From the NCBI RefSeq assembly GCF_030929605.1, contig NZ_JAVFVS010000005.1, forward strand, positions 310,001 to 374,000: a stretch of 64,000 nt of DNA, read 5' to 3'. This DNA comes from Flavobacterium sp. LHD-80. GTDB taxonomy: Bacteria; Bacteroidota; Bacteroidia; Flavobacteriales; Flavobacteriaceae. Shown here piece by piece: positions 24,796-44,261 of this stretch; within the stretch, counting starts at the first letter, position 1; each line of letters begins with the position of its first letter. A model generated the notes under the pieces. That model was not told the DNA's origin. It did no database searches and saw only the letters and a program-made list of their open reading frames with translations. Both the position numbers and the translations under genes were made by a program.

Positions 24796-25779
24796 TTATT
24801 TTTTAGAATTGCTTTTTTCGGCGTATCTACCCAAAATATAATTTGTTACAGGTTTAATTGTAGCACCATTTTCAGGACTTCTTCCATTTCCATTTCCATT
24901 AAAAAAATCAACTTCTGTAGATGATTTTCTTGCATACCAGATAAATGCTTCCTTGTTGGGTCTAAAACAATTTGTAGTATCATAAACTTTAATTTTTCTG
25001 AAGCTTAAGAGATAATTATCTTTTGGAAATACCTCATTTAAATTTCCTTTAATGGGTTCGTCACAATAAACTAATTCGTAATGATCGCCTGACCATTGCA
25101 TACATTCTTTATGTGGCAGAGCTAAATAAATGATCAAACCTAATCCAGCAAGAATAGCTGTAATTGCTAAATATCTTAATTTTTTAGATTTTGGTTTCTC
25201 GCTAATATTTACAAAAGTCGATATAGGCATTTTTACAGACTCAGCTTCCTTGCTTTGAAGTGGTTGGGAATCTTCAACAACATCATCTGTTTTTGAATCA
25301 TTTAAGCCTTCAATTTCTTCTTGAACATTCAAATTATTAGAAGCGACTTCTTTACCAGAATTATTAGTAATCCTTAACTCATTTATCAATTCTAAATCTT
25401 CTTCATCAATTTGTTTTCTAAACTTATTAAAAGGTCTTGGACGAAGATCTACAAGTATTGCAGCTAATTGAATAGTTTCATCGGCTGGATTCTCCGTTTT
25501 GCCTTTAAAAAACCTCTTAACCGATTCTAATTTATTTAGCTCATCACCTCCAAACAAATTTCTTTTATCCTTATCAAATGGAAAATCAAAAAAAGATTCA
25601 AAAGTAATCAAGTCATCTTTATCAGTGTTTGAAGCAAATCTTTTGATGCATAATTTTCTAAGATTTGCGGTCGTTGGCGAACTTAAATTATTTGAATAAT
25701 CCCCTTCTTCTTTTTCCTTTTCATATTTCGCTTTAATAGCATTTTTATAATCTTCAAAAGTAATGTTTGACATAGGCAT
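24796..25779 (-). CDS. Cassette A single-pass membrane protein of unknown function
   Basis: Not recognised as a named family. The 327 residues show a charged N-terminal region (about 1-125: EDYKNAIKAKYEKEKEEG, a LRKLC block, KRFFKG and AAILVDLRPRPFNKFR), a variable acidic linker, one membrane segment (about 203-222, YLAITAILAGLGLIIYLAL) and an outer domain with KECMQWSGDHYE, two or more cysteines and FFNGNGNGRSPENG. Positive residues before the membrane segment suggest N-terminus inside. Paralogues are encoded at 34834-35751 (full) and 41098-41733 (outer domain missing), each divergent from a TPR histidine kinase unit. An anti-sigma-like or kinase-modulating role is only a guess. Confidence 0.8.
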   Translation of the reverse strand: MPMSNITFEDYKNAIKAKYEKEKEEGDYSNNLSSPTTANLRKLCIKRFASNTDKDDLITFESFFDFPFDKDKRNLFGGDELNKLESVKRFFKGKTENPADETIQLAAILVDLRPRPFNKFRKQIDEEDLELINELRITNNSGKEVASNNLNVQEEIEGLNDSKTDDVVEDSQPLQSKEAESVKMPISTFVNISEKPKSKKLRYLAITAILAGLGLIIYLALPHKECMQWSGDHYELVYCDEPIKGNLNEVFPKDNYLLSFRKIKVYDTTNCFRPNKEAFIWYARKSSTEVDFFNGNGNGRSPENGATIKPVTNYILGRYAEKSNSKK

Positions 25780-25784
25780 TTCGA

Positions 25785-25892
25785 ACTTTTTACAACTTTT
25801 TCTAAAGGACTTTATTCTACTTTTTGTGACTTTTTATGACTTCTTAGAACTTATCTCAACTTTAAAAAAACTAATTAGACTTTCCTGACTTT
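25785..25892. repeat. Helically phased ACTT decamer array, cassette A
   Basis: The dinucleotide AC followed by T recurs at 25785, 25795, 25809, 25819, 25829, 25839, 25849, 25859, 25870, 25879 and 25888, mostly at exact 10-bp steps, with units such as GACTTTTTAT. It lies directly upstream of the membrane-protein start. Confidence 0.7.
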
Positions 25893-25953
25893 TCAATCAA
25901 TACAGCTCTGAACCCCACATAACTTTGCCTCAACAAAATTAGTTAACGTAATG

Positions 25954-25963
25954 ATCTGCAGAT
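25954..25963. promoter_or_regulatory. ATCTGCAGAT palindrome upstream of the cassette A leader
   Basis: A perfect 10-bp palindrome; the equivalent place in cassette C has GTCTGCAGAC (42091-42100). The outermost pair has changed on both sides, so symmetry is kept. A TAACTTTG box (25920-25927) on the plus strand is a weak candidate promoter for the peptide-kinase transcript. Confidence 0.4.
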
Positions 25964-25969
25964 TAAAAA

Positions 25970-26012
25970 CAAAAGTACAAAACTAGTTTTATTAAAAGTA
26001 TGGAAATCCGTA
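25970..26012 (-). promoter_or_regulatory. Shared-box promoter of the cassette A membrane protein
   Basis: On the minus strand TACGGATTTCCATA (25999-26012) is followed after exactly 21 bp by TACTTTTG (25970-25977), a TAnnTTTG -7 box. The same box and spacing precede the genes at 28915 and 32968, and weaker versions precede the cassette B and C membrane proteins. Confidence 0.7.
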
Positions 26013-26133
26013 AGACCGAGTTTAGCCGGGAAGTCTAAATAAAAATCTTACTGTTCTACATACTTCACTTCCCAAAAAACAATTTGGTATTGCCATTAAA
26101 AAATGCTCTGGAAAAGTTCCGGACAGCAATACC
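26010..26133 (+). promoter_or_regulatory. Conserved structured leader, cassette A (interleaved stems plus long hairpin)
   Basis: GTAAGA (26010-26015) can pair with TCTTAC (26046-26051), and GGGAAGT (26028-26034) with ACTTCCC (26067-26073). The arms are interleaved, as in a pseudoknot. Then GGTATTGC (26086-26093) pairs with GCAATACC (26126-26133) around an inner stem, TCTGGAA/TTCCGGA. The same order occurs in cassette C and, decayed, in cassette B. The 14-mer TCTTACTGTTCTAC is identical in all three copies. It ends 27 bp before the lipoprotein ATG. Confidence 0.65.
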
Positions 26134-26160
26134 TATTTCAAAATTTTAAACAAAATTATT

Positions 26161-26340
26161 ATGAAAAAGATATTCATTTTGGGAGCGTTCGCCCTATTGT
26201 CAACTACATTATTTTCTTGCACAGCCGACGAATATGATGATGTTAAAAAGGAAATTAATCCTTCAAAACCTTCTTATGCTGATGATGGTCCTGGAGATTT
26301 GCCTGTTCCACTTCCGCCACCGCCACCAAGCAAAGACTAA
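26161..26340 (+). CDS. Cassette A small proline-rich lipoprotein
   Basis: A 59-residue predicted lipoprotein: Met-Lys-Lys start, hydrophobic core, lipobox TTLFSC (Cys20), then an acidic spacer, the motif YADDGPGD and a run of prolines (VPLPPPPPSKD) to the end. A 68-residue homologue with FADDGPGD and a proline-threonine tail is in cassette C. It lies between the structured leader and the kinase gene, so it may be the ligand or a secreted signal for that kinase, which is inference. Confidence 0.75.
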   Translation: MKKIFILGAFALLSTTLFSCTADEYDDVKKEINPSKPSYADDGPGDLPVPLPPPPPSKD

Positions 26341-26375
26341 ATAAATTTATTTTAATATAATTTAATCATTAAATT

Positions 26376-26407
26376 CGGGGAAAGTAAAGTTTATGTTACG
26401 ATCCCCG
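26376..26407 (+). promoter_or_regulatory. Hairpin enclosing the cassette A kinase start codon
   Basis: CGGGGA (26376-26381) pairs with TCCCCG (26402-26407); the kinase ATG (26393-26395) lies in the loop. Cassette C has the same stem; in cassette B it is broken. It could limit translation of the kinase relative to the lipoprotein. Confidence 0.55.
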
Positions 26408-28090
26408 TTTTTATATTTTATCCTATTTGTTTTTCTTTTTTCATGCAATGAAAAAGAAACTGTTGCTACGAATATAGATTCAATAAAAAAAGAAGCAAAA
26501 AAAAATCAGGAAAAAGGCCTAACTGACTTTGCAAAAAAAGACTTTAATACTGCTTTTTATAATTTAAACAAATCTAAAATAGCATTTGAAAATTTGAAAG
26601 ATAGCGCCAATTTGGTTTACAATCTTATTCTCATGGCTAATATCCAACAAATTAATGGGGATTATTATGGTAGTAAAGAAACACTTACTGAAGCATTGCC
26701 TTATGTAAAAAAAAAGGATGTTTATAGTGCCGCAATCAATAACTTTTTTGGCATCGCTGATAAGGAATTATCTAATTATGAGGATGCTATTTACTACTAT
26801 AACGAAGGACTTAAAGATTGTTCCGATTCTTTGTGCAAACAATCTATTTTAAATAATATCGCAGTTGTTTATATTAAACAAAAAAAATACGATAAGGCAA
26901 TCAAAATCTTTGAATCTATTTTAAATATAAAAGGATCGGGAGATCAATTCATAAATAGTAAAGCTGGAATTTTAGACAATTATGGTTATGCTTTGTTCAA
27001 AAAAGGATTAAATGAGAAGGGTTTTTTGTTTATGAAACAAAGTCTAGACCTAAGACAAAGTAATGTTAAAGATTACGGAAGCATTGAAAACAATTTACAT
27101 TTATCAGAATTTCACTTTAAAAGCCAGCCTCAAAAATCAAAACAATTTGCCTCAAATGCCTACGAAACGGCAACGAAAATACACAGTATTGATGAACGTT
27201 TAAAGGCTTTGTCTTTTTTAATGACCAATAATTCTGTGACTAATAAAACAGAATACATCCAAAAATTCATTTTCTTAAATGATAGTATCCTAAAAGTCAG
27301 GAATAATTTTAAAAACAAATTCGCAAAAATTAAATACGATTCAAAAAAAGAAAAAGACGAAAATGAGAAATTGCGTTTAGAAAAAGCTGTCGCCCAAAAA
27401 GATTCCGAAAATGAGAAAATCGTATTTATTGGAATCCTAATTATTCTTCTATTTTTATTCGCCTATTTGAAAAAACATTATGATAATCGGAACCGAATAG
27501 GAAAAATAAAGACTGTCTACGATACCGAAACAAGAATTTCTAAGGATATACATGATGAATTGGCAAATGATGTCTTCGATACAATAACCTTTACACAAAC
27601 TCAATCTTTAACAACCGAAAATAATACAGGGATCTTATTGCAAAAACTAAATCATATTTATACTCGTGTTCGAGGTATTTCAAGAGAAAATAATGATATC
27701 GATACTGGAATAAATTATTCAAGAAATTTAAAAGAAATGCTTTCTACTTACAGCGACAATAATATAAATGTCTCAATTAATGGTATCGAAAAAATAAATT
27801 GGGATGTAATTGAAGAGCTTAAAAAGATAACAATTCATCGCGTTTTACAAGAATTAATGGTTAACATGAAAAAGCATAGCGAAGCTTCGGTAGTGGTTTT
27901 AAAATTTGAAACGGACAGTAATAAAATCTTTCTAAATTACTCAGACAACGGAAAAGGCAGTGAAAAATCAAAGATTATAAAAAATGGTTTGCAAAATATG
28001 GAAAACCGTATTTTATCTGTAAAAGGAGCAATTACTTTTGAAACCGAACCTCAAAAAGGTTTTAAAGTAAAAATAACTATGCCTAAATAA
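26393..28090 (+). CDS. Cassette A TPR-domain sensor histidine kinase
   Basis: A 565-residue sensor kinase. An N-terminal signal or lipobox (FLFSC, Cys18) is followed by an extracytoplasmic TPR array (about 35-300, with repeats such as DAIYYYNEG and KYDKAIKIFESIL), a coiled coil rich in Lys/Glu (about 305-340), one membrane segment (343-359), and a NarL-type kinase core: the phospho-accepting His387 in ISKDIHDELANDV, the N-box ELMVNMKKHS and the G-box YSDNGKG. A response regulator follows after 6 bp. TPR sensors of this build are common in Bacteroidota; the ligand is unknown. Two paralogues are encoded at 36305-38011 and 42552-44261. Confidence 0.92.
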   Translation: MLRSPFLYFILFVFLFSCNEKETVATNIDSIKKEAKKNQEKGLTDFAKKDFNTAFYNLNKSKIAFENLKDSANLVYNLILMANIQQINGDYYGSKETLTEALPYVKKKDVYSAAINNFFGIADKELSNYEDAIYYYNEGLKDCSDSLCKQSILNNIAVVYIKQKKYDKAIKIFESILNIKGSGDQFINSKAGILDNYGYALFKKGLNEKGFLFMKQSLDLRQSNVKDYGSIENNLHLSEFHFKSQPQKSKQFASNAYETATKIHSIDERLKALSFLMTNNSVTNKTEYIQKFIFLNDSILKVRNNFKNKFAKIKYDSKKEKDENEKLRLEKAVAQKDSENEKIVFIGILIILLFLFAYLKKHYDNRNRIGKIKTVYDTETRISKDIHDELANDVFDTITFTQTQSLTTENNTGILLQKLNHIYTRVRGISRENNDIDTGINYSRNLKEMLSTYSDNNINVSINGIEKINWDVIEELKKITIHRVLQELMVNMKKHSEASVVVLKFETDSNKIFLNYSDNGKGSEKSKIIKNGLQNMENRILSVKGAITFETEPQKGFKVKITMPK

Positions 28091-28096
28091 AAGCCT

Positions 28097-28765
28097 ATGT
28101 TTAAAAAAGTAATAATAGCTGAAGATATCGATGCCATGAATTTAGGAATTCAACAGGTTTTGAAAGATTTAAATATTGCCGATTACCAACATTCAAAATT
28201 TTGTGATGATGCGTTTCTAAAAATACGTGCAGCAATTCACAAAAATGAACCATTCGATTTATTAATTAGTGATCTTTCTTTTAAAAAAGATCATCGTGAA
28301 CCAAACATTAAAAACGGAGATGAACTGGTTCAAAAAGTACGTGAATTACAACCTGATATTAAAATAATTGTCTATTCTGTCGAAGACAAAAGCTTTCGTA
28401 TTAAATCGCTTTTTGAAAATGCTGAAATAGATGGTTTTGTTTTAAAAAGTTTGAATAGTATTGAAGAATTAAAAAAAGCAATCAATCTGATTTCAAGTTC
28501 TGACAAAAAATTTATTTCTCCAGAAATATCTTCTGCTTTACAGGAAAAAAACAATTTCGAAATAGAAGAATTGGATATTAAGATTTTAAAGCATTTAGCT
28601 GACGGCACTTCTCAAGATGAAATAATAGAAATCCTAAAAACCTTAGGAACTAAACCGAACAGCAAAAGTGCTATGGAAAAAAGACTTTCTAGATTAAAAG
28701 ACTTTTTTAAAGCGAACAATACGCTTCATTTGATTTCAATTGTAAAAGATATGGGGATAATTTAA
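28097..28765 (+). CDS. Cassette A response regulator
   Basis: A 222-residue regulator with an N-terminal receiver (acidic pair Glu9-Asp10, phospho-acceptor Asp59 in LLISDLSF, conserved Lys in FVLKS) and a C-terminal helical DNA-binding region (IKILKHLADGTSQDEIIEIL, SAMEKRLSRLKDFFKA) that is LuxR-like but extended at the end (LISIVKDMGII). It is the partner of the kinase 6 bp upstream and is closely similar to the regulator of cassette B (38020-38688). It may bind the shared promoter box of this region, which is inference. Confidence 0.92.
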   Translation: MFKKVIIAEDIDAMNLGIQQVLKDLNIADYQHSKFCDDAFLKIRAAIHKNEPFDLLISDLSFKKDHREPNIKNGDELVQKVRELQPDIKIIVYSVEDKSFRIKSLFENAEIDGFVLKSLNSIEELKKAINLISSSDKKFISPEISSALQEKNNFEIEELDIKILKHLADGTSQDEIIEILKTLGTKPNSKSAMEKRLSRLKDFFKANNTLHLISIVKDMGII

Positions 28766-28785
28766 ATTCCTGCTATTCCTATTTT

Positions 28786-28809
28786 AAAGCTCCTTCGGGG
28801 GCTTTTTTT
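28786..28809 (+). terminator. Terminator after the cassette A response regulator
   Basis: AAAGCTCC and GGGGCTTT form a stem with a TTCG tetraloop, followed by a T-run. Confidence 0.88.
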
Positions 28810-28836
28810 ATTGCCGAAATTTAAAATTTTATGGAT

Positions 28837-28879
28837 TATGGATTTCCGTAAAATGCTGGTTTTATTGAATTTACTTTTG
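28837..28879 (+). promoter_or_regulatory. Shared-box promoter ahead of the 28915 gene
   Basis: TATGGATTTCCGTA (28837-28850), then 21 bp, then TACTTTTG (28872-28879). The layout equals that of the cassette A membrane-protein promoter and of the promoter at 32900-32942. Confidence 0.7.
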
Positions 28880-28914
28880 GATTATTAATCAACTAATTAA
28901 AACTTAAAAAAATT

Positions 28915-29145: not shown

Positions 29146-29146
29146 A

Positions 29147-29986: not shown

Positions 29987-31798
29987 ATGAAACTACATAC
30001 ATTAAAAATATCAGGGTTCAAACGATTAAAAGATGTTACAATTAATTTTGGTGATGCAACATTTTTAATTGGACAAAATAATTGTGGAAAGAGCACAATT
30101 TTAAAGGCAATAGAAATTTTACTCTCCGCAAAAAAACAGCTTACAAATTTTGATTATCATTCAATTATTGACGAAGAAACTGGAGAAACTAAAGTTGATA
30201 TCCAAACAATAGTCTTAGAAGCTGAATTTAGAAATTTACCTGAAGAAGCAAAACAATGGAGGGGATTTAAAGGTAGAATTTTCGAATATGACATAGAAGA
30301 AGAAGAAGAAGTCGTTGATAGCGGCCTTTCTGTGACTTATAAAAAAACATATGAAATTGGAAAAGATGTAATGATTGAATTTAAATCTAAAGTCCGTGAA
30401 ATAGCTGAAGATTTTAGAGATTGCAAAACGATAAATGACTTTATCGCAAAAGGATTGAGTGAAGAATTATTTAGTATTTTATCTATTGAGAATGATAAAC
30501 CAATAGGTAAGAGTAAAGGCATTTTAGAAAAACTTGAACAAATTGATGAAATTTGGGATATTCAAGACGATGAGGTTTGGTTTCAAAACCCAGGAGGAAT
30601 CCCTGGAAACGTTTTAAAAATGCTACCGCGTTTCTTAATGATTCCTGTTGACATATCAACTAGTGAAATCCAAGGAAATGGAAATGGAGTATTAGGAAAA
30701 ACATTAGGTGAATTATTTGAAACCGTTAGAGAAAATTCAAATAATTTCAAAGAAGCCCAAACACATCTTCAAAATCTTGCAAAAGAGCTTGATCCGCAAG
30801 ATGTAGATTCTGAATTTGGCAAAATGATGACCGATTTAAATATGGTTTTAGAAAGTGTTTTTCCTGATACAAAACTACATGCCACCACAAACTTGAGTGA
30901 TCCAACAAGTTTAAAACCTTCTTTTAATGTGGAAATGTCTAGTAATATTAAAACAATTGTAGAATATCAGGGAACAGGAATGATTAGAGCCGCAGTTTTT
31001 GGAATGTTAAGATACAGACAAAAGTGGTTAAGCCAACGGGAAGATGATCACGCAAGGTCGTTGATAATTTGTTTTGAAGAACCTGAGATCTATTTGCATC
31101 CCAGTGCTGCTAATCAAATGAGAGAAGCCATTTATGATTTAAGCACTTCAAATTCTCAAATTATCGCCTCCACACATTCACCCTATTTAATTGATATTTC
31201 CAAGAAACCAAAACAAGTTCTAAATCGATTATATAATTGTGGTAATCATGTAAATTGCAATTCATTCTCTGTTAGCGAAAAATTTAAACTACTTCAAGAC
31301 GATGATAAAGATTATGTAAAAATGTTAATGAAAATTGATAATTATATCTCTCGTATATTTTTCACAAACACGGTAATTGTAATTGAAGGAGATACAGAAG
31401 ACTTATTAATACGAGAATCGTTAAAAAGACTTCCTAGACAAGATTATTTAAAGATTCTTTCAAACTTTGAAATTGTAAAAGCAAGAGGAAAAGCAGCTAT
31501 AATAGGTTTAATTAAATATTTAGCATCAATGGGGATTCAGCCAATTGTGGTTCACGATAGAGATGCTAATGTAGCAAATGCCGAAAAATATAATAAACCA
31601 ATTCAAGATGCTCTTGGCGACGGAGGTAAAATCATAATGATGCATGAAAATGTAGAAGATGAACTTAATTATGCAGCAACATATGAAAAACCTTTAAAAG
31701 CTTATATTAAGACAAAAGAATGGGGAGAAAATTGGGACGACTTACCAGAAAATTGGAGAATAAAATTAAAAGAAATTTTTGGAGAATATATACCATAG
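29987..31798 (+). CDS. OLD-family ATP-dependent endonuclease (AAA ATPase + TOPRIM)
   Basis: A 603-residue protein with an SMC/RecF-like ATPase split into an N-terminal lobe (Walker A GQNNCGKST at 29-37) and a C-terminal lobe (Walker B LIICFEEPEIYLHPSA; STHSPYLIDIS), followed by a TOPRIM nuclease domain (about 463-545: VIVIEGDTEDLLI, VVHDRDA). This is the OLD layout, used in phage interference and in Gabija (GajA). No GajB-type helicase, reverse transcriptase or AriB partner is adjacent, so it is not assigned to a named system. Its neighbours downstream have PD-(D/E)XK-like motifs. Confidence 0.92.
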   Translation: MKLHTLKISGFKRLKDVTINFGDATFLIGQNNCGKSTILKAIEILLSAKKQLTNFDYHSIIDEETGETKVDIQTIVLEAEFRNLPEEAKQWRGFKGRIFEYDIEEEEEVVDSGLSVTYKKTYEIGKDVMIEFKSKVREIAEDFRDCKTINDFIAKGLSEELFSILSIENDKPIGKSKGILEKLEQIDEIWDIQDDEVWFQNPGGIPGNVLKMLPRFLMIPVDISTSEIQGNGNGVLGKTLGELFETVRENSNNFKEAQTHLQNLAKELDPQDVDSEFGKMMTDLNMVLESVFPDTKLHATTNLSDPTSLKPSFNVEMSSNIKTIVEYQGTGMIRAAVFGMLRYRQKWLSQREDDHARSLIICFEEPEIYLHPSAANQMREAIYDLSTSNSQIIASTHSPYLIDISKKPKQVLNRLYNCGNHVNCNSFSVSEKFKLLQDDDKDYVKMLMKIDNYISRIFFTNTVIVIEGDTEDLLIRESLKRLPRQDYLKILSNFEIVKARGKAAIIGLIKYLASMGIQPIVVHDRDANVANAEKYNKPIQDALGDGGKIIMMHENVEDELNYAATYEKPLKAYIKTKEWGENWDDLPENWRIKLKEIFGEYIP

Positions 31799-32967: not shown

Positions 32968-34023
32968 ATGGAAATCAACATTCAACTAAAATCACTAGCC
33001 GATAAAATAAATCAGCTGAAAAGTAAAATTGAGACTGAAGAATCTACAAAACATGCTTTTGTATTGCCTTTTATACACATTCTGGGTTATGATGCTTTTA
33101 ATCCGTTAGAAGTAGTTCCTGAATTTACAGCAGATCTTGGGCTGAAAAAAGGCGAAAAAGTAGATTATGCTATTTTTCAAAATGGAGAACCCATTATCAT
33201 TGTAGAATGCAAAAGCTGGAAAGAAAATCTTACGGTACATAATTCTCAATTATTTCGCTATTTCCACGTTACAAAAACTCGATTTGCGCTTTTGACAAAT
33301 GGTATTACTTACCAATTTTTTACTGATTTAGATAATCAAAACAAAATGGATGAAAAACCATTTTTGGAATTTGACATTTGCAATCTAAAAGAGAATACTA
33401 TAAACGAGATTGCAAAATTTCATAAAGCCAATTTTGATGTAAATAACATTGTAAGCAATGCCAGTTCTCTAAAATACATTAAAGAAATAAAAAAGCAGAT
33501 AAGTGCAGAATTAGAAAATCCTTCAAATGATTTTACAAAACTTTTTGCTAATAAAGTATATGCCGGAAGATTGACTGAAAAAGTTGTGGACGAATTTAAA
33601 GATTTGGTTCAAAAATCGGTCAGCCAATTTATTAATGATAAAATCAATGACCGATTAAATGCTGCTTTAACCAAAGAAACAATCAAACAGCAAGTTGAAG
33701 AAATTTCAATAATTGAAGATGACAATAAAATTATTACATCTGAAGAAGAACTTGACGGTTATCGAATAGTAGTTGCTATTTTACGTCGAAAATTACCAAC
33801 CAACAGAATTGTTTATCGCGATACGCAATCCTATTTTGGAATCTTGCTGGATGATAACAACCGTAAGCCTTTATGCCGACTGCATCTTAATGGCGGTAAA
33901 AAATATATAAGCCTGTTTAATGACAATAAAACAGAGTCAAAAATTTCGATTTCATCAATCGACGATATTTATCAGTTTGAGAAAGAATTATTAGATACTG
34001 TGGCGCTTTACGAAACAGAATAA
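32968..34023 (+). CDS. Type I restriction-enzyme R N-terminal-like (HsdR_N) protein
   Basis: A 351-residue protein with an HsdR N-terminal-type nuclease domain: HAFVLPFIHILGYDAFNPLEVVPEF, the catalytic pattern VDYAIFQNGEPIIIVECKSW, and NSQLFRYFHVTKTRFALLTNG. There is no helicase motor, so it is a stand-alone nuclease-like protein rather than a restriction subunit. The C-terminal third (about 245-351) is a separate domain with RRKLPTNRIVYRDTQSYFGIL. Such stand-alone proteins occur widely in bacteria, often in variable regions. It carries its own shared-box promoter. Confidence 0.85.
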   Translation: MEINIQLKSLADKINQLKSKIETEESTKHAFVLPFIHILGYDAFNPLEVVPEFTADLGLKKGEKVDYAIFQNGEPIIIVECKSWKENLTVHNSQLFRYFHVTKTRFALLTNGITYQFFTDLDNQNKMDEKPFLEFDICNLKENTINEIAKFHKANFDVNNIVSNASSLKYIKEIKKQISAELENPSNDFTKLFANKVYAGRLTEKVVDEFKDLVQKSVSQFINDKINDRLNAALTKETIKQQVEEISIIEDDNKIITSEEELDGYRIVVAILRRKLPTNRIVYRDTQSYFGILLDDNNRKPLCRLHLNGGKKYISLFNDNKTESKISISSIDDIYQFEKELLDTVALYETE

Positions 34024-34798: not shown

Positions 34799-34833
34799 AA
34801 ACCTCCCAAAAGAAATTCTCTTTGGGAGGTTTT
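34799..34833. terminator. Bidirectional terminator at the outer end of cassette B
   Basis: ACCTCCCAAA and TTTGGGAGGT with flanking A and T runs; it is homologous to the terminator at 24759-24793 of cassette A. Confidence 0.88.
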
Positions 34834-35751
34834 TTATTTTTCGGCGCTTGACTTATGAGCGTATTTTCTAAAAATATCTTTTGTCACTGGTTTCAGTGCA
34901 TTATTGTTTTCAGGATGTCTGCCGTGGCCGTTAAAAAATTCAATTCCGTCAGCCGTTGTCGCGTACCAGATCGTCGCGCGTCCATATTTATCAAAACAAA
35001 CTGTTTTGTCATCAAGATCTACTTTTTTGAGATGAACCAAACTTTCATCTAACAACTCAACTGGATTTTCTGCAAGCGAACCTTTTGTTTTCAAATCACA
35101 GCTTACAATCTCATAATGATCCCCAGACCATTGCATGCATTCCTTCTGCGGAAGCGCCAAATAAATAATAACGCCGATCAAACAGACAACAGAAGCTATT
35201 GCCACAGTTCGAAACATTTTAAATTTTGACTTGTAAATTCTGATTTTTCTTTTCTTGTTTGGTGTTTTTGTAAAAACTGCTGTTTCGGGTTGTTTTAGAA
35301 TTTCGACTGGTTTTACATATTCAGTTTTAGGTAAAACTTCGGCACCCTGCACCGTGCTTTGTCCTTCCTGAGACATTGCTTTTGCCTTAAATTTTCTGAA
35401 AGGTCGTGGCTCAAAATCAATCAAAATTGCCGCCATGTCAACCGTATCTATTTTTTGAGGTTCTTTTTCCCCTTTTAAAAAAGCGCCAACTTTTTTGTAT
35501 TTATCTGTATAAGTTGTACAGGTATCTTCTTGATTTTTATTGAAAGGAACACCTTTAAAATCCCAATATACTTTTAAGTCATCTGGAGAAGGATTTTCGC
35601 GTAATATTCGCCAACATAAATCTCTTAAATGTGCTTGAGAAGGTGTCTCTAAATAATTCGAATTTTCCCCTATTTCTTTTTCACTATTATATTTTGTTCG
35701 TATAGCTTCTTTATAAGCTTTTTCATAATTGCATCGTGTAATGTTGTCCAT
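34834..35751 (-). CDS. Cassette B single-pass membrane protein of unknown function
   Basis: A 305-residue paralogue of the cassette A membrane protein. It keeps the N-terminal region (EKAYKEAIRTKYNSEKEIG, LRDLCWRIL, AAILIDFEPRPFRKFK), a basic juxtamembrane stretch, a membrane segment (about 182-200) and the outer domain (KECMQWSGDHYEIVSCD, FFNGHGRHPENN). The outer domain is better conserved than the linker, suggesting it is the functional part outside the cytoplasm. It is divergent from the cassette B kinase, across a region that holds the decayed leader. Confidence 0.8.
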   Translation of the reverse strand: MDNITRCNYEKAYKEAIRTKYNSEKEIGENSNYLETPSQAHLRDLCWRILRENPSPDDLKVYWDFKGVPFNKNQEDTCTTYTDKYKKVGAFLKGEKEPQKIDTVDMAAILIDFEPRPFRKFKAKAMSQEGQSTVQGAEVLPKTEYVKPVEILKQPETAVFTKTPNKKRKIRIYKSKFKMFRTVAIASVVCLIGVIIYLALPQKECMQWSGDHYEIVSCDLKTKGSLAENPVELLDESLVHLKKVDLDDKTVCFDKYGRATIWYATTADGIEFFNGHGRHPENNNALKPVTKDIFRKYAHKSSAEK

Positions 35752-35760
35752 AATACATTC

Positions 35761-35787
35761 AGGATTTTCAGGATTTCTAGGATTAAT
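35761..35787. repeat. Phased AGGATT repeat, cassette B
   Basis: AGGATTTTC, AGGATTTCT and AGGATTAAT follow one another at 35761, 35770 and 35779. The array starts 10 bp upstream of the membrane-protein start, the same relative place as the decamer array of cassette A. Confidence 0.6.
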
Positions 35788-35907
35788 AACTCGTATTTTT
35801 AAAGAAAATCAGGAACATTATGAATCTCCGGATTCCCTTCTTAATTCTCAGAAAGATATATATTTTCTTTACTTCAAAATTAGTTTTTGTTCTGAAATGG
35901 ATTAGAA

Positions 35908-35951
35908 CAATTGTACAAAAATGGTTCACTAATAAAGTACGGAAAACTGCA
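35908..35951 (-). promoter_or_regulatory. Degenerate shared-box promoter of the cassette B membrane protein
   Basis: Read on the minus strand: TGCAGTTTTCCGTA (35938-35951), 22 bp, TACAATTG (35908-35915), one mismatch from TAnnTTTG. It is weaker than the cassette A copy. Confidence 0.45.
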
Positions 35952-36062
35952 AGACAAGTTTAGAAGGGGAGTCTAAAATTAGCTCTTACTGTTCTACGCA
36001 CTTTCTTCTCAACAAAATTGCAATTGCCAAAAAAACGATTCAGAACAGTTCAGAACAGCAAT
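35949..36062 (+). promoter_or_regulatory. Decayed structured leader, cassette B
   Basis: Homologous to the leader of cassettes A and C. It keeps TCTTACTGTTCTAC exactly (35984-35997), but the first-stem partner is now GCAAGA with a mismatch, the GGGAAGT/ACTTCCC stem is lost, and the last hairpin is imperfect. The gap 35752-36092 otherwise holds the promoter and the phased repeat. Confidence 0.5.
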
Positions 36063-36092: not shown

Positions 36093-36255
36093 ATGAAATA
36101 AAATATTTTTATTGGAAGCGTTCGCTTAATTGAACACAACCCTCTTTTCTTTTACTGTTGATGAATAAGATGTTGCAAAAAAAGAAATCAAACCTTTTAG
36201 ACCAACTTTTGCTGATGATATTTCTGTCATACCAATGCCTCCAAAAAATGAATAA
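36093..36255 (+). pseudogene. Cassette B lipoprotein pseudogene
   Basis: Aligned with the cassette A lipoprotein, the sequence shows a one-base insertion at codon 3, two in-frame stop codons after that shift (one near codon 10, one replacing the Tyr after Asp-Glu), and a Cys-to-Phe change at the lipid-anchor position. The tail stays open and keeps KKEIKPFRPTFADD and a short proline end, but the GPGD motif and most of the proline run are lost. Confidence 0.8.
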
Positions 36256-36304: not shown

Positions 36305-38011
36305 ATGTTGCGATCCCCTTTTTTTTGTTTTCTCTTTTTTGTCTTTCTTCTTTCCTGCAAAGACAAAACAGATGTTCCTGTAAAAAATGAGGCTCTAAAA
36401 AAAGAAGCCAAAGAACTTAGAGGTAAAGGAATCAAAACGCTTGAGAAAGAAAACTATGATAGTGCGTTTTACTATTTCAATAAATCTATAATTTTATATA
36501 AAAAGACGGCTGACAGCGCTAATATTGTATATGTCCTTTCTCAAGTGGCTAATATACAGCAAATCAATGGCGATTATTACGGAAGTAAAGAAACACTTAC
36601 AGAAGCGTTGCCCTATGTGAGAAAAAAAGATATTTATTCCTCTTATATAAATAATCTTTTTGGAATAGCTGAAAAAGAATTGTCTAATTACAAAGATGCA
36701 ATTTACTATTATAATGAAACCATAAAAGATTATAATAAGCCTGGAGTTAAACGATATTCTTTAAACAACATTGCGGTTATATATATCAACCAAAAAAAAT
36801 ATGATAAAGCTATAAATCTACTAGAATCTGCTATAAAAATAAAAATAACTAAAACAGAATTACAATATGATACATCCCGGATCTTAGATAACTTAGGCTA
36901 TGCTTATTTTAAAAATGGATTGCCAGAAAAAGGGCTTTTATACATGAACAAAAGCTTAGAGTTGAGAAAAACTTATCCAGATGATTACGGAAGTATAGAA
37001 AACAGCCTCCATTTATCCGAATTTTATAGTGAAACTAATCCTCAAAAATCAAAAGAATTTGCATTAAAAGCTTATGGTACAGCTACAAAAATGCACAGTA
37101 TTGATGAACGCCTAGAATCTTTAGCTTTATTAATGTCAAATAAGTCGGTTGCTGAAAATACTGAATATGCTAAAAAATTCACTTTTTTAAACGACAGCAT
37201 TACCAAAATCAGAAATAATTTTAAAAATAAATCTGCTAAAATAAAATACGATTCTCAAAAGGAAAAAAATGAAAATGAAAAACTTCGTTTAGAAAAAGCT
37301 GAAAATCAATTGGCATTGCAACGCGCGCAGTATCGCCAATTTATATTTATTTCGATTTTTCTTCTTCTTTTTCTTCTGATATTTTATCTGAGAAAATATT
37401 ACCGAAACAAAAACCGGATTGAAAAACTAAAAACTGCCTATGAAACTGAAATCAGAATTTCTAAAGATATTCATGACGAACTCGCCAATGATGTTTTTCA
37501 TACAATAGCATTTTCGCAGACACAACCATTGGAAAATGAAAATTCCAAAGAAACACTGATTCAAAAATTAGATCATATTTATGCTAGAGTCCGCAGTATT
37601 TCAAAAGAAAACAATACTATTGATACCGGAATACATTATGTTACAAACCTGAAAGAAATGCTTTCGACCTATAATAATGAAACCAGAAACATTATTATAA
37701 ATAGTATTGAGAAAATAAATTGGGAGGCAATTGACGATATTAAAAAAATCACAATTCAGCGCCTATTACAAGAATTAATGGTCAATATGTCTAAGCACAG
37801 CGAGGCTTCACTGGTGGTTGTGAAATTTGATCACGATACAAATAAGATATTTATAGACTATACGGACAACGGAAAAGGAGCTAAAAAAAATAAAATTATT
37901 AAAAATGGTATCCAAAATATGGAAAACCGTATTTTGTCTACAAAAGGAACCCTTACTTTTGACACTGAACCCAATAAAGGTTTTAAAGTAAAAATATCCA
38001 TGCCTAAATAA
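36305..38011 (+). CDS. Cassette B TPR-domain sensor histidine kinase
   Basis: A 568-residue paralogue of the cassette A kinase with the same build: a start MLRSPF, lipobox-like LLSC, TPR array (NGDYYGSKETLTEALPYV is shared exactly with A), a membrane segment (about 345-361), His-box ISKDIHDELANDVF, N-box ELMVNMSKHS and G-box YTDNGKG. The reading frame is intact although its upstream lipoprotein is a pseudogene. The start-codon hairpin is broken here (CGGCGA against TCCCCT). The response regulator follows after 8 bp. Confidence 0.92.
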   Translation: MLRSPFFCFLFFVFLLSCKDKTDVPVKNEALKKEAKELRGKGIKTLEKENYDSAFYYFNKSIILYKKTADSANIVYVLSQVANIQQINGDYYGSKETLTEALPYVRKKDIYSSYINNLFGIAEKELSNYKDAIYYYNETIKDYNKPGVKRYSLNNIAVIYINQKKYDKAINLLESAIKIKITKTELQYDTSRILDNLGYAYFKNGLPEKGLLYMNKSLELRKTYPDDYGSIENSLHLSEFYSETNPQKSKEFALKAYGTATKMHSIDERLESLALLMSNKSVAENTEYAKKFTFLNDSITKIRNNFKNKSAKIKYDSQKEKNENEKLRLEKAENQLALQRAQYRQFIFISIFLLLFLLIFYLRKYYRNKNRIEKLKTAYETEIRISKDIHDELANDVFHTIAFSQTQPLENENSKETLIQKLDHIYARVRSISKENNTIDTGIHYVTNLKEMLSTYNNETRNIIINSIEKINWEAIDDIKKITIQRLLQELMVNMSKHSEASLVVVKFDHDTNKIFIDYTDNGKGAKKNKIIKNGIQNMENRILSTKGTLTFDTEPNKGFKVKISMPK

Positions 38012-38019
38012 TTTTCAAT

Positions 38020-38688
38020 ATGTTTAAAAAAGTAATAATAGCCGAAGACCTTGACAGCATTAATTTTGGAATAGAACAAGTCCTAAAAGATTTAGGGATT
38101 GAAAACTTTCACTATTCTAAATATTGTGATGATGCTTTTTTAAAAATACGAAAAGCTGTTCAGGACAATGAACCATACGATTTATTGATAAGTGATCTTT
38201 CATTCAAAACAGATCATCGTGAAGTAAAATTGGCCAGCGGTGACGAATTAGTTCAAAAAACGCGTGAATTACAGCCAAATATCAAAATACTTACATACTC
38301 AGTCGAAGACAAAAGCTATCGTATTAAATCGCTTTTTGAAAATGCTGCCATAAATGCTTTTGTGTTAAAAGGCCGAAACAGTATTGAAGAACTAAAAAAA
38401 GCCATTAATCTTATTTCGGCTTCTGATGAAAAATTTATTTCGCCAGAAATTGCTTCTATACTACAGGAAAAAAACAATTTTGAGATTGATGATATTGATA
38501 TTAAAATCTTGAGATATTTAGCCGAAGGAAAATCGCAGGACGACATCATAAATATCTTTAAAAATGCTGATATCAAACCAAACAGCAAAAGCGCGATCGA
38601 AAAAAGATTGTCTAAACTGAAAGATTTTTTCAAAGCAAATAATAGTGTTCAGTTGATTTCGATTATTAAAGATATGGGGATAATCTAG
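38020..38688 (+). CDS. Cassette B response regulator
   Basis: 222 residues, collinear with the cassette A regulator: acidic pair Glu9-Asp10, phospho-acceptor Asp59 in LLISDLSF, and a C-terminal helical DNA-binding region (IKILRYLAEGKSQDDIINIF, SAIEKRLSKLKDFFKA). The last eight residues IIKDMGII are nearly identical to those of A. The two regulators may recognise the same DNA sites. Confidence 0.92.
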   Translation: MFKKVIIAEDLDSINFGIEQVLKDLGIENFHYSKYCDDAFLKIRKAVQDNEPYDLLISDLSFKTDHREVKLASGDELVQKTRELQPNIKILTYSVEDKSYRIKSLFENAAINAFVLKGRNSIEELKKAINLISASDEKFISPEIASILQEKNNFEIDDIDIKILRYLAEGKSQDDIINIFKNADIKPNSKSAIEKRLSKLKDFFKANNSVQLISIIKDMGII

Positions 38689-38711: not shown

Positions 38712-38731
38712 AAAGCTCCAAAAGGAGCTTT
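38712..38731 (+). terminator. Terminator after the cassette B response regulator
   Basis: AAAGCTCC, an AAAA loop and GGAGCTTT, then T's. The stem matches that at the same place in cassette A. Confidence 0.85.
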
Positions 38732-40304: not shown

Positions 40305-40322
40305 AGCTTTCCTTAAAAATAA

Positions 40323-40357
40323 TAAAAGCCTTTCGCATTGAATGTGAAAGGCCTTTT
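40323..40357. terminator. Bidirectional terminator after the GH1 gene
   Basis: AAAGCCTTTCGCAT pairs with ATGTGAAAGGCCTTT, with T and A runs outside, between two converging genes. Confidence 0.85.
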
Positions 40358-40374
40358 TGTTTGCGATAAGCTTA

Positions 40375-40740: not shown

Positions 40741-41097
40741 AAATGCTATTTTAGATTGATTTTAAACCGAAATCAAATTGTTCCTCACTCCTCTATAAAT
40801 ATAAATAAATTTATTTCAATACCTCCAAAAAACAAGTTTTAGCGCCTCATTTATTAAGCATTAAAAACATGAAAAAAAATCAAAAAAAATAGCTAAAAAA
40901 ATCACTTATTTTACTGATTTTATTTGGTTTAACCGTATATTTTTCGTATCTTTATATTGTAAATAACAGTAAATATATGCCGAAAAACAAACTTTTTAAA
41001 TGCCTAAATTACACTTCAAAAAATTATTCTTTTTCCAACTTTTTGCATTTTATTTTTCAAAAAAATGCTTTCAATCTTCATTTGGAAATTATCCTTT

Positions 41098-41733
41098 TTA
41101 ATCTTTTTTCTGCACAAAGTATAAACATGCAGAAGACACTAATGCGACCGCTCCAATTGCAATCGTAATTACTTTTCTTGGATATATTATCTGACCTATT
41201 TTTTTAGAAAATATATCTTTTAAATTGAAAAAAAGATTTCCTCTTTTAGGAACTTCTTTAGACGCTACATTTTCATTTTTCACAAAACTCTTTAATTCTA
41301 TGACTTCATTCTCGATTGCAGCAGTTGCTCCTATTCCTCCTATGTTTTCTGCCAACTTGGCTTCTTCATTTCTACACTTTCCATTAAACCTTTTAAAAGG
41401 GCGCGGTTGAAAATCGACCAAAATGGCCGCAAGATTTATTGCGTCAATATTTGAGGGATCTGTTTCACCTTTAAAAAAGGTTTCGATGGGTCTAAACTTA
41501 TCTTTTTGTTCCTTAAACCTATTCTTTTTTGTATGATCAAAATCCAAACACAATAAATTCCTAAAAACATTCAAATCATCTTGAGTTGGGTTATTCTCGA
41601 AAATAAGCCAGCACAAATCGCGCAGTTTTCCTCGAGACGGGCTATACAAATAATCAAAGTATTCTCCCTCTTTTTCGAGTTCGTATTTAATTTTAATCCC
41701 TTTTTTATATTCTTCTAATGTATTATTCATCAT
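41098..41733 (-). CDS. Cassette C membrane protein, short form lacking the outer domain
   Basis: 211 residues; the N-terminal region is a clear paralogue of the cassette A and B membrane proteins (EEYKKGIKIKYELEKEGEY, KLRDLCWLIF, PIETFFKGETDP, AAILVDFQPRPFKRF). The membrane segment (about 188-206) is followed by only QKKD and a stop. No trace of the KECMQW outer domain was seen downstream. It is either a natural short form or a truncated copy. It is divergent from the cassette C lipoprotein. Confidence 0.8.
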   Translation of the reverse strand: MMNNTLEEYKKGIKIKYELEKEGEYFDYLYSPSRGKLRDLCWLIFENNPTQDDLNVFRNLLCLDFDHTKKNRFKEQKDKFRPIETFFKGETDPSNIDAINLAAILVDFQPRPFKRFNGKCRNEEAKLAENIGGIGATAAIENEVIELKSFVKNENVASKEVPKRGNLFFNLKDIFSKKIGQIIYPRKVITIAIGAVALVSSACLYFVQKKD

Positions 41734-41987
41734 GTCTTTTTTAGGAATCTCTTTAGACTCTTTACTTTCATTTTTAATCTAAATCTTTTTATATGCCTTT
41801 AATTTTGACTTCTAAAATTCAAATCTGTACAAGCCTTTCAATTTTTATTTTAATTCTAATTTATTTCTACTTTTTTTTCACAATTCACCCAACTTTTTTC
41901 AGGTTTATTGCATCTATTATTATAGGGATTTGTCTAAAATCAAATAAAATTTAATCAAAAAATAGGCATCGCATTTTTATTTTATTG

Positions 41988-42030
41988 GGAAATCATAGGA
42001 ATCTCAGGAAAACATAGGAATTCCGGGAAT
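41988..42030. repeat. Phased GGA repeat, cassette C
   Basis: GGA recurs at 41988, 41998, 42007, 42017 and 42026, in units such as CATAGGAATC. The period of about 9.5 bp parallels the arrays of cassettes A and B, though the motif differs and it lies farther (255 bp) from the membrane-protein start. The rest of 41734-41987 is AT-rich with no gene seen. Confidence 0.55.
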
Positions 42031-42105
42031 TCCGTATCTACAGTGCTCTAAAACTGCCTTTCCTTTGTATCAGAAATTAGTTCAAGTTTTGTCTGCAGAC
42101 TAAAA

Positions 42106-42149
42106 CAAAAATAAAAAACTAGTTCTAATTAATATTGTGGAAAACCGTA
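42106..42149 (-). promoter_or_regulatory. Shared-box promoter of the cassette C membrane protein
   Basis: On the minus strand TACGGTTTTCCACA (42136-42149), 22 bp, TATTTTTG (42106-42113), a perfect TAnnTTTG. It would give a long leader of about 365 bp to the membrane-protein start. Confidence 0.5.
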
Positions 42150-42265
42150 AGACCGAGTTTATTCGGGAAGTTTAAATTACGTCTTACTGTTCTACACGAT
42201 CAACTTCCCAAAATCAATTTGGTATTGTCAATAATGAACTCTGGATAACTCCGGACAGCAATACC
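42147..42265 (+). promoter_or_regulatory. Conserved structured leader, cassette C
   Basis: GTAAGAC (42147-42153) pairs with GTCTTAC (42181-42187); GGGAAGTT (42165-42172) pairs with AACTTCCC (42202-42209), again interleaved; GGTATTGT (42221-42228) pairs with GCAATACC (42258-42265) around TCTGGA/TCCGGA. Both interleaved stems are one base pair longer than in cassette A, with both partners changed. The lipoprotein start follows at 42293. Confidence 0.65.
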
Positions 42266-42292
42266 TATGTCTAATTTCTAAATCAAATCAAA

Positions 42293-42499
42293 ATGAAAAA
42301 ATTATTATTTTTTAGCGCTTTTGCGTTATTATTCAGCATATTTTCTTGTACTCCTGACGAATTTGAAACGCAGCCAAAACAAGAAACCAAAAAAATTGTT
42401 AATCCAGCAAAAGACACTTTTGCTGATGATGGACCTGGTGATACTGGTGGTACTACGACACCTCCAACACCACCACCTCCAACGCCAACGGATCAATAA
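42293..42499 (+). CDS. Cassette C small proline-rich lipoprotein
   Basis: 68 residues: lipobox FSIFSC (Cys19), TPDEF, a Lys/Gln-rich spacer, the motif FADDGPGD and a Thr/Pro tail (TTTPPTPPPPTPTDQ). It is homologous to the 59-residue lipoprotein of cassette A, which shares ADDGPGD and the proline end. The kinase gene follows after 52 bp. Confidence 0.78.
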   Translation: MKKLLFFSAFALLFSIFSCTPDEFETQPKQETKKIVNPAKDTFADDGPGDTGGTTTPPTPPPPTPTDQ

Positions 42500-42533
42500 A
42501 AATATTTTTAGTATCTAAATTAATTACTATTTT

Positions 42534-42566
42534 CGGGGAAAGTAAATTTATATGTTACGGTCCCCG
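42534..42566 (+). promoter_or_regulatory. Hairpin enclosing the cassette C kinase start codon
   Basis: CGGGGA (42534-42539) and TCCCCG (42561-42566) with the ATG at 42552 in the loop, as in cassette A. Confidence 0.55.
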
Positions 42567-44261
42567 TTTTTTTATTTTATTCTTCTTCTTTTTCTTTTTT
42601 CTTGTAAAGAAAAAAAGACCGTCGATCCTAATACAGCAGCTATACAGAAAGAAGCTCTTAGCATACGAGATAAAGCTATTGAAAATTTTGGAAAACAAAA
42701 CTTTAATGAGGCTTTTCATGGCTTTAATAAATCCAAAACACTTTACGAAACTTTAAAAGATAGTGCCAATATTGGATATATTCTTTTACAACTGGCAGCA
42801 ATACAGCAAGTCAACGGAGATTATTATGGTAGCAAGGAAACTGTTACTGAAGCATCAACCTATTTCAAAAAAAAGAATAAATACACCGCCTCTATAAATA
42901 TCACATTAGGCATTGCCGATAAAGAACTTTCTCTATACAATGATGCTATTTTTTATTATAAAGAATCTGCGAAAGAGTATAAAGATCCTATTGAAAAACT
43001 AGGCCCTCTATCTAATATTGGCCCAATCTATATCCAACAAAAAAAGTATGATAAGGCAATTGCTCTTTTAGAATCTATTTTGAGCAAAAATTTATTAAAT
43101 GATAAAGGTCACGCCCCCATTAAAGCTCGAATTCAAGATAATTTGGGTTATGCCTATTTTAAAAATGGAATGGAAGAAAAAGGATATTATTTAATGGATA
43201 AAGCGCTTCAGAAAAGAAACGAAATTAAAGAAACGTACGGAAGTATTGAAAGCTACTTACACTTAGCTGATTATTATTCAAAAAAAGACATTCAAAAATC
43301 TGATGAAAATGCGCTAACAGCATATAGCATCTCAACAAAACTAAATAGTGTTGATGAAAGATTAGAAGCGTTGCAAATTTTAATTTCAAATGATCACAGC
43401 CCTAAAAAACACAAATATGTTCACCAGTATTTTACACTAAATGACAGTATCATTAAAGTTAGAAACAACTTCAAAAATAAATTTGCCAAAATTAAGTACG
43501 ATGCTAAAAAAGAAAAAGACGAAAACGAAAAACTTCGTTTAGAAAAAGCAGAAAATTTATTGTCTCTTCAAAAAGAGAAATACCTGCGAATTGTTTTTGT
43601 CATCATATTTGTTTTCCTAGTCATTTTAATAGCAATTCTAATTCGCTATTATAAAAATAAAAACAAAGCAATCGAATTTAAAGCTTCGTATGAAACCGAA
43701 ACCAGGATTGCTAAAAAAATCCATGATGAACTGGCAAATGATGTTTTTAATGTGATTGCTTTTACCGAATCGCAACCTTTGTCTATAGAAAACACAAAAG
43801 AGAATCTACTTCAAAAATTAGATGATATTTACGGCCGTGTAAGAGGAATTTCAAAAGAAAACAATAGAATTGATACTGGTACCAATTTTACCAGCAACAT
43901 AAAAGAAATGCTTTCGAGTTATAATACGAGCGAAAGAAATATCATATTTACTAATTTCGAAAACATACATTGGGAAATTATTGATGATATAAAGAAGATT
44001 ACCATTAGCCGAATTTTACAAGAGTTATTGGTAAATATGAAAAAACACAGCAAAGCGAATCTTGTTGTTTTAAAATTTGAAAATGATCCAAATTCAATCT
44101 TAATAAACTACAGCGATAATGGCATTGGTTGCGAAAAAAATAAGATTGTAAAAAATGGCCTTCAAAACATGGAAAGCCGTATTCATGCCGTTAAAGGAAC
44201 TGTTGATTTTGAAACAGAACCTTATAAAGGTTTTAAAGTGAAAATAAACATTCCTAAATAA
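42552..44261 (+). CDS. Cassette C TPR-domain sensor histidine kinase (no adjacent response regulator)
   Basis: A 569-residue paralogue of the cassette A and B kinases: MLRSPF start, lipobox-like FLFSC, TPR array, membrane segment (about 348-366), His-box IAKKIHDELANDVF, N-box ELLVNMKKHS and G-box YSDNGIG. No response-regulator gene follows; 44262-44504 holds hairpins and the terminator of the converging efflux operon. It may signal to the regulators of A or B. Confidence 0.92.
   Translation: MLRSPFFYFILLLFLFSCKEKKTVDPNTAAIQKEALSIRDKAIENFGKQNFNEAFHGFNKSKTLYETLKDSANIGYILLQLAAIQQVNGDYYGSKETVTEASTYFKKKNKYTASINITLGIADKELSLYNDAIFYYKESAKEYKDPIEKLGPLSNIGPIYIQQKKYDKAIALLESILSKNLLNDKGHAPIKARIQDNLGYAYFKNGMEEKGYYLMDKALQKRNEIKETYGSIESYLHLADYYSKKDIQKSDENALTAYSISTKLNSVDERLEALQILISNDHSPKKHKYVHQYFTLNDSIIKVRNNFKNKFAKIKYDAKKEKDENEKLRLEKAENLLSLQKEKYLRIVFVIIFVFLVILIAILIRYYKNKNKAIEFKASYETETRIAKKIHDELANDVFNVIAFTESQPLSIENTKENLLQKLDDIYGRVRGISKENNRIDTGTNFTSNIKEMLSSYNTSERNIIFTNFENIHWEIIDDIKKITISRILQELLVNMKKHSKANLVVLKFENDPNSILINYSDNGIGCEKNKIVKNGLQNMESRIHAVKGTVDFETEPYKGFKVKINIPK

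Follow-up and report, generated by a model that had tools for sequence, protein, structure and literature searches.

Three paralogous units in the window

The stretch of DNA analyzed here, referred to as the window, comprises 64,000 nucleotides of Flavobacterium sp. LHD-80 (contig NZ_JAVFVS010000005.1, positions 310,001 to 374,000) and carries three paralogous units, A, B, and C (Table 1). In its full form, as in unit A, the unit has five parts: a minus-strand gene for a membrane protein, here called M, and, divergently from it, a structured leader RNA, a small lipopeptide, a TPR histidine kinase, and a response regulator. The M start codon and the leader promoter flank an array of short direct DNA repeats. 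On the evidence of sequence comparison, this A-type five-part locus is a real, conserved, and apparently undescribed unit; searches of the open-paper literature returned no publication on it.

A sequence-only reading of the window had proposed three repeated cassettes. The divergent arrangement of a minus-strand membrane protein with a leader and a TPR kinase indeed recurs in all three units, with leaders that can be aligned, M N-terminal domains (N-domains) that in B and C are 41% and 34% identical to that of A over the alignment, and kinases that are 64% and 57% identical to that of A. Also borne out was the absence of a response regulator from unit C, the regulators of A and B being present and 74% identical. 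As a full cassette, only unit A stands. Several stops break the peptide frame of unit B, leaving the lipoprotein that had been assigned to every unit intact in A and C, and M of unit C in addition lacks its outer domain. Regarding the terminators described as alike in A and B, the post-regulator pair was confirmed, while the outer terminator was listed by the terminator scan for A and seen only by eye for B (near 34800-34835; absent from the scan list). The phased array, the broken B peptide, the pseudoknot of the leader, and the loss of the outer domain in C go beyond that reading.

The pseudoknot is mostly retained in unit B by means of G-U pairs (GGGGAGT/TCTTCTC). The putative -7 box of the unit A leader promoter, TAACTTTG, presumably corresponds to the Bacteroidota consensus. 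In the genome of LHD-80 as a whole, a covariance model of the leader found these three leaders and no fourth at an E value of ≤0.001. The same contig carries, at a distance of about 134 kb, a solitary fourth copy of the M N-domain, and another contig has a tandem pair of further close kinase paralogues, one of them interrupted by an internal stop.

Table 1. Features of units A, B, and C and of neighboring genes (positions in the window)
Feature	Position	Strand	Remarks
Unit A outer terminator	24759-24793		terminator scan
Unit A M	24796..25779	-	327 amino acids (aa); type-1 N-domain, one membrane helix, outer domain (topology predicted from model of L191 homologue)
Unit A phased repeat array	25780..25900		ACTTT motif about every 9-10 bp; abuts M start codon
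Unit A putative -7 box, leader promoter	25920..25927	+	TAACTTTG; read from sequence
Unit A leader RNA core	25994..26077	+	covariance model match
Unit A leader long helix	25996-26016 with 26046-26065	+	coordinates from sequence
Unit A pseudoknot	26028-26034 with 26067-26073	+	hairpin loop GGGAAGT pairs with ACTTCCC
Unit A small lipopeptide	26161..26340	+	59 aa; lipobox, proline-rich end
Unit A terminator-like hairpin	26376..26414	+	CGGGGA..TCCCCG plus T-run; kinase start codon in loop
Unit A TPR histidine kinase	26393..28090	+	
Unit A response regulator	28097..28765	+	
Unit A post-regulator terminator	28786..28805	+	terminator scan
Unit B M	34834..35751	-	305 aa
Unit B phased repeat array	35752..35865		GGATT/GGAAT motif
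Unit B leader RNA core	35933..36014	+	weakest of the three, 38.5 bits
Unit B lipopeptide remnant	36093..36254	+	broken frame; ATGAAATAA at ~36093, several stops
Unit B TPR histidine kinase	36305..38011	+	
Unit B response regulator	38020..38688	+	
Unit B post-regulator terminator	38712..38731	+	terminator scan
Unit C M	41098..41733	-	211 aa; N-domain and membrane segment, without outer domain
Unit C phased repeat array	41987..42045		GGGAA/GGAAT motif; ~250 bp from M start
Unit C leader RNA core	42131..42213	+	
Unit C small lipopeptide	42293..42499	+	68 aa
Unit C TPR histidine kinase	42552..44261	+	no adjacent regulator
OLD/GajA/AriA-like AAA ATPase with TOPRIM domain	29987-31798		between units A and B
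HSDR_N nuclease-like protein	32968..34023	+	Pfam 3.4e-14; possible optional sixth part

The unit is conserved in the genus and beyond

The leader covariance model, spanning an 84-position core and built from nine sequences including window A, gave 86 matches in 57 of 150 Flavobacterium genomes. The M profile matched 65 of the 150, among them all 57 with a leader; in seven of the eight genomes with M and no leader match, a kinase and a regulator lie beside M, and the eighth match is a 39-residue frame. At locus L174, in a genome without a leader match, M carries stops. Our survey of neighboring parts covered 87 leaders, being the 86 matches and a weaker one at L177, with the doubtful matches L154 (minus strand) and L178 left out. 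M lies beside 80 of these leaders, and a scored peptide, a kinase, and a regulator follow 83, 84, and 56 of them, respectively. The complete five-part unit is found at 52 leaders, and four more lack only a scored peptide: window B, with its broken frame; L118, where the frame is split; L053, whose longer peptide was read by eye; and L168, with a weak hit. Of the three leaders without a kinase, one (L147) is at the end of a contig. The 87 leaders are not all separate loci, since L150 (genome G126) and L164 (genome G144) each hold two leader copies, about 620 bp apart, that share one M and one kinase.

On a wider scale, M was found in 65 of 296 genomes sampled from the order and in 38 of 345 sampled from the phylum, both samples including members of the genus. 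Among the loci fetched, M with a divergent peptide, a kinase, and a regulator occurs at 16 loci of a second family, at four in other genera of the first family (that of Flavobacterium), and at three in other orders. Individual loci deviate: M is split at L237 (another genus of the first family), no peptide was identified beside M, kinase, and regulator at L252 (another order), M lacks the outer domain at L253 (first family), and the M match at L256 has neither kinase nor regulator. At L254 and L255, a stretch resembling the outer domain (WYxK..EFY..PGFxP..PLxPIT) occurs in proteins from two genomes of another class, where the unit is absent.

A kinase phylogeny placed kinases without M inside the unit kinases. 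In this fast tree, 10 kinases lacking M are scattered among 110 that belong to units (120 in all) and require at least four changes, a nesting that suggests that M was lost from related kinase loci. Related kinase-regulator pairs at L044, L046, and L047 are accompanied by neither M, RNA, nor peptide and lie downstream of two open reading frames (ORFs), which we take to resemble ribosomal proteins L35 and L20.

M and the phased array

A model of M from L191 (mean predicted local distance difference test score [pLDDT], 65.8) has helices at residues 8 to 138, a helix at 196 to 217, and a beta-rich part at 222 to 290, consistent with a predicted topology in which the N-domain lies inside the cell, followed by one membrane helix and an outer domain. 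The N-domain of window C is predicted to be all-helical (AlphaFold; pLDDT, 87). M and the peptide gave nothing above the cut-off in Pfam and NCBIfam, Foldseek and VIA-align yielded no clear fold for the whole M model or the N-domain alone, and a sequence search of the PDB with the M profile returned no match up to an E value of 1. Another N-domain (type 2), with no similarity to type 1 that could be detected, is carried by 15 of the 16 second-family M proteins, and both types sit on the same outer domain. A profile built from the second family alone also recognized type 2 in L234, L236, and L237 of the first family, bringing the number of type-2 loci to 18.

The array carries about one repeat per helical turn. 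Over 68 genus loci, which include relatives and are not independent, 4-mers matched 408 times at lag 9 and 428 times at lag 10, where base shuffles predict 45, and the signal echoes at lags 19 to 20 and 28 to 29. By eye, arrays hold up to about ten repeats. The motif is GGAAT-like in most genus loci and ACTTT in seven, including window A; the labels of L153 (mis-scored as ACTTT) and of L157, L042, L045, L150, and L164 (unscored) were set by hand to GGAAT. On the tree of M N-domains (82 rows, few columns), the ACTTT set requires a single change, with a support of 99, compared to five changes on the regulator tree (76 rows), where the starred branches force at least two.

The pair L131/L037 shows this most clearly. 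The two loci share identical peptides (100%) and near-identical regulators (99%), kinases (97%), and outer domains (95%), but their N-domains are only 44% identical and their array motifs differ. Base identity is mostly 90 to 100% (82 to 88% in three kinase windows) and drops to 33 to 81% in one block that comprises the end of the outer domain, the linker, the membrane segment, the N-domain, and the array; beyond the block, it is 80% at the promoter and at least 92% across leader and peptide. Because this single divergent block spans both the N-domain and the array, the comparison argues that the domain and its DNA were exchanged together.

A second correspondence is seen at the type-2 loci, where the array period is different: lag 11 gave 123 matches versus 14 expected (117 versus 13 without L237), with TGTCC/TGTCT motifs at most loci and TTCC in five. 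Outside the genus, four or more GGAAT/C repeats accompany the type-1 N-domain at five of six loci (L221 of the second family, L235, and L250-L252), while all 18 type-2 loci have none or one (5/6 versus 0/18; Fisher P = 1.4e-4, uncorrected for descent). In many second-family loci (L218-L233), a palindrome like TTACGGnnnnCCGTAA was seen by eye between M and the array.

Conceivably, it is the response regulator that binds the array, with M a co-inherited accessory, for instance, a kinase antagonist, and with array changes arising by linkage to the M gene. The regulator is encoded in the same operon, and it goes together with the M outer domain (55 loci with both, 18 with neither, and 6 and 1 mixed, uncorrected for descent and with some of the six cut by contig ends; the 18 belong mainly to the C-type branch). 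Moreover, LuxR-type regulators can bind direct repeats about one helical turn apart, as in the array. Nevertheless, we consider this explanation rather unlikely. The L131 and L037 regulators face arrays with different motifs, and regulators 99% identical to each other would hardly recognize two such different motifs, which makes the N-domain the better candidate. In addition, C-type units retain the array and have no regulator, and the stand-alone N-domain paralogue, which has neither kinase nor regulator, is preceded by TTTCCTGAGATTCC, by eye a partial array-like repeat. Across the sequences compared, array motif and spacing track the M N-domain better than the regulator. The inner domain of M is the likely reader of the array, so M would appear to be a regulator rather than an accessory of the kinase.

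The leader is a covarying pseudoknotted RNA

As judged from its alignment, the leader is a covarying RNA with a pseudoknot. In the covariation test (88 distinct rows, including the doubtful L154 minus strand and L178), 88.1% of pair cells were standard versus 77.5% after shuffling, and 25 of 32 pairs changed on both sides. The covariation score, favored by an alignment fitted to the structure, was 0.265 versus 0.102 for shuffled alignments, none of 500 reaching it, and fell to 0.06 to 0.07 when the partner was slid by one column. A first alignment had mixed two register classes and led RNAalifold to the pseudoknot helix only; it was replaced by the one used here. Since the pseudoknot GGGAAGT/ACTTCCC is nearly invariant, its support is mostly conservation, with compensatory changes in L132, L235, and L236 and one broken pair in L038. 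Applied to 20 loci outside the genus, the Flavobacterium-built model gave 17 hits with E values of ≤1, 14 of them <0.02, although the L235 hit lies on the strand opposite the peptide. L250-L256 gave no match to the model; for L250 and L251, the leader was recognized by eye. Rfam contained no match to the leader up to an E value of 1 (window 22000-46000) or 0.5 (L227 and L038). A CsrC hit after the peptide of L227 was far below the cut-off.

Several further elements surround the core. A simple stem test did not single out a 5' hairpin ahead of it (AATTAG..ACTAGTT; 62 of 87 leaders), with 10% of loci scoring above the shuffled 95th percentile; covariation of its inner palindrome was seen only by eye. 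After the pseudoknot, a self-complementary element (GAGTACTC, GGAGTACTCC, GAGAGGCCTCTC, or GAAGCGCTTC) varies in sequence and remains palindromic by eye (L048, L051, L235, L234, several of L218-L233, and L250), making it a candidate RNA dimer site or operator. Many genus leaders, such as those of L038 and L041, have a recurrent ATGTCTAATTTTTAA upstream of the peptide start (by eye), possibly an upstream ORF (MSNF stop) that is sometimes in frame with the peptide. A Flavo-1 RNA (RF01705) at L038:15149-15226 (E value, 4.1e-6) is unrelated to the leader; both are structured RNAs of flavobacteria, but the leader does not match RF01705.

Such a structure might suggest that the leader itself is the main sensor, as a riboswitch or attenuator, or that together with the peptide ORF and terminator it forms a dual-function RNA acting elsewhere, with the proteins responding to it. 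The strong covariation, the near-invariant pseudoknot with its compensatory changes, and the terminator-like hairpin that follows leader and peptide would all fit, as would a terminator-like GAAGCGCTTC plus T-run seen by eye 3' of the pseudoknot in several second-family loci. However, unlike most riboswitches, the leader varies widely in sequence outside the loop, and it is not represented in Rfam. We regard such a sensor or dual-function RNA as improbable.

The peptide and the hairpin before the kinase

The peptide is under purifying selection, with a pooled ratio of nonsynonymous to synonymous substitution rates of 0.27 (126 pairs of 70 to 99% identity). In Flavobacterium it has a lipobox, and 77 of 81 peptides carry at least two acidic residues at positions +2 to +7 after the lipid cysteine, mostly at +4 and +5. 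In these acidic residues the peptides resemble the Flavobacterium surface lipoprotein export signal SDDFE (PMC5080379), suggesting that they may be exported to the cell surface. The B-type peptide is intact in the relatives L185 and L186 and degraded or gone in L187-L190. Second-family peptides have a hydrophobic start, mostly without the lipobox cysteine, and an end such as DTGGETGQxPPPKK, which recurs at two loci from another order. That the peptides keep this end but not the anchor points to the end as the functional part.

A terminator-like hairpin in the interval from the peptide stop to the kinase start (+60) is present in 70 of 80 genus units (6% in base shuffles) and in 17 of 20 loci outside the genus (3% in base shuffles). 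In view of this hairpin, transcription probably yields an abundant short RNA of leader and peptide, and the kinase and regulator by read-through.

Alternatively, the lipopeptide might serve as an export decoy in a sensor of envelope stress or outer membrane quality, the kinase or M detecting its failure to arrive at the surface. The residues resembling the export signal (PMC5080379) and the lipobox-like N terminus of the kinases are compatible with this idea. We think it very unlikely, considering the second-family peptides that mostly lack the lipobox cysteine and the shared end (DTGGETGQ..PPP) in that family and in the two loci of another order, which favor a signal residing in the end.

Kinase, regulator, and neighboring genes

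The unit kinases combine a HATPase domain, TPR repeats, and one membrane segment. With HATPase_c of Pfam (cut-off, 26.4 bits), kinase A scored above the cut-off (28.3 bits) and kinases B and C below it (23.1 and 23.2 bits); kinase A also matched the NCBIfam UhpB model over the kinase region (1.9e-16), below the cut-off of that model. For the receiver domain (Pfam cut-off, 30.2 bits), regulator A scored 34.2 bits and regulator B 22.6 bits, below the cut-off.

Homologues of the HSDR_N protein encoded between units A and B occur in 27 of 118 loci scanned (two as short fragments), in two bacterial families; the loci include eight within L221-L230, as well as L144, L148, L149, L154, and L191. All 27 are on the strand of the nearest regulator, 25 are downstream, and six are at 72 to 165 bp. 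The distribution is patchy (15 of 61 genus genomes), and among copies of at least 74% identity, eight of nine lie within about 4.3 kb of a unit regulator. From its position, the gene may be a target of the unit or an old neighbor. The OLD/GajA/AriA-like ATPase is a possible defense gene. A defense role of the unit itself, considered in view of these two neighbors, was discarded, as PADLOC reported nothing for M, the kinase, or the regulator of unit A.

Discussion

Sequence evidence supports the conservation of the unit, the structure of its RNA, the phased array and its match to the N-domain, the terminator-like hairpin, and the purifying selection on the peptide. We propose, with about even confidence for and against, that M is a tethered transcription factor controlling the leader-peptide-kinase-regulator operon and that the peptide is read by the kinase. 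Each unit would then be a self-contained signaling locus. The N-domain of M, inside the cell, would bind the phased array that separates the M start codon from the leader promoter and control transcription of leader, peptide, kinase, and regulator, and possibly of M itself. Where present, the outer domain might sense something in the periplasm that sets the activity of M. From the leader promoter, a short transcript would arise with the pseudoknotted leader and the small exported peptide, ending mostly at the terminator before or at the kinase start, with read-through yielding the TPR kinase and the regulator. On the cell surface or released from it, the peptide would be a likely ligand or sentinel for the periplasmic TPR domain of the kinase and perhaps also for the outer domain of M. 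In this scheme, we infer the DNA binding by M, the direction of control, the promoter and transcript ends, the export of the peptide and its role as a ligand, and the targets of the regulator.

A number of observations weigh against this proposal. The array adjoins the N-domain code, and linkage alone could move both. The type-2 locus L236 has no 11-bp peak of its own, and L253 combines a type-1-like N-domain with an absence of GGAAT repeats. The type-1 N-domain matched no DNA-binding family in Pfam or NCBIfam, including the OmpR-type winged helix, and its structural matches were weak (Z score, 2.9 at best), although helix-turn-helix DNA-binding proteins make up four of the seven rows. Array-like triplets elsewhere in the LHD-80 genome are at control level, and no wider regulon was found: with patterns that catch only A and B among the genome's own arrays, each gave six matches versus six and four in the backward control, and a wide regulon was dropped for that reason. 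The B-type loci L187, L188, and L190 retain M and the regulator but have lost the kinase, and their peptide is degraded or absent; conversely, seven C-type units have leader, peptide, and kinase without an adjacent M. The latter, together with the stand-alone N-domain paralogue and L254/L255, are also the exceptions to the association of the parts. Otherwise the unit is not accidental in the genus in the sense of the sequence-only reading, under which homologues would mostly occur apart: M is present in 57 of 57 leader genomes, and kinase plus regulator in seven of the eight genomes with M but no leader match.

Placed beside known systems, the two-component core of the unit is ordinary, and the RNA, the exchangeable domain-operator pair, and the peptide are unusual. 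As in orthodox systems of Bacteroidota with a TPR kinase and a LuxR-type regulator, a HATPase/TPR kinase with one membrane segment precedes a receiver-domain regulator, but the unit adds the divergent M, the phased array, the pseudoknotted leader, the small peptide, and the terminator-like hairpin before or at the kinase start. M is reminiscent of ToxR/CadC-type factors, which have an N-domain inside the cell, one membrane helix, and an outer domain and act at repeats by a divergent promoter; the predicted architecture of M and the repeats by its divergent promoter are alike. Unlike these factors, M has no winged-helix family match, combines two dissimilar N-domain families with one outer domain, and faces up to about ten array repeats, as counted by eye.

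The Staphylococcus agr system comprises a peptide, a kinase, a regulator, and RNAIII, which is structured and encodes a peptide. In outline the unit is similar, with its small peptide, sensor kinase, regulator, and structured peptide-encoding RNA, but RNA, kinase class, and cell envelope differ, and no AgrB/AgrD-like family was found among the 10 unit proteins scanned. In RRNPP receptors, TPR domains bind exported peptides. The unit likewise encodes a TPR domain beside a small peptide gene; in contrast, this domain, a candidate receptor of the peptide, is predicted to lie outside the inner membrane and is fused to a kinase.

If the proposal is true, the unit would be a compact signaling circuit in widespread environmental bacteria, with an RNA, an N-domain, and an outer domain for which we found no described family. 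The natural joint exchange of a protein domain and its operator would make the DNA-reading specificity of a membrane-bound factor directly testable. The unit would also be a candidate for peptide signaling in Bacteroidota. Tentatively, and with more doubt than confidence, we envisage a Gram-negative form of such signaling in which a small exported peptide, its end recurring across orders, is read by a TPR kinase outside the inner membrane, and in which exchangeable M domains, operators, and RNA may insulate co-resident copies of the unit from one another.

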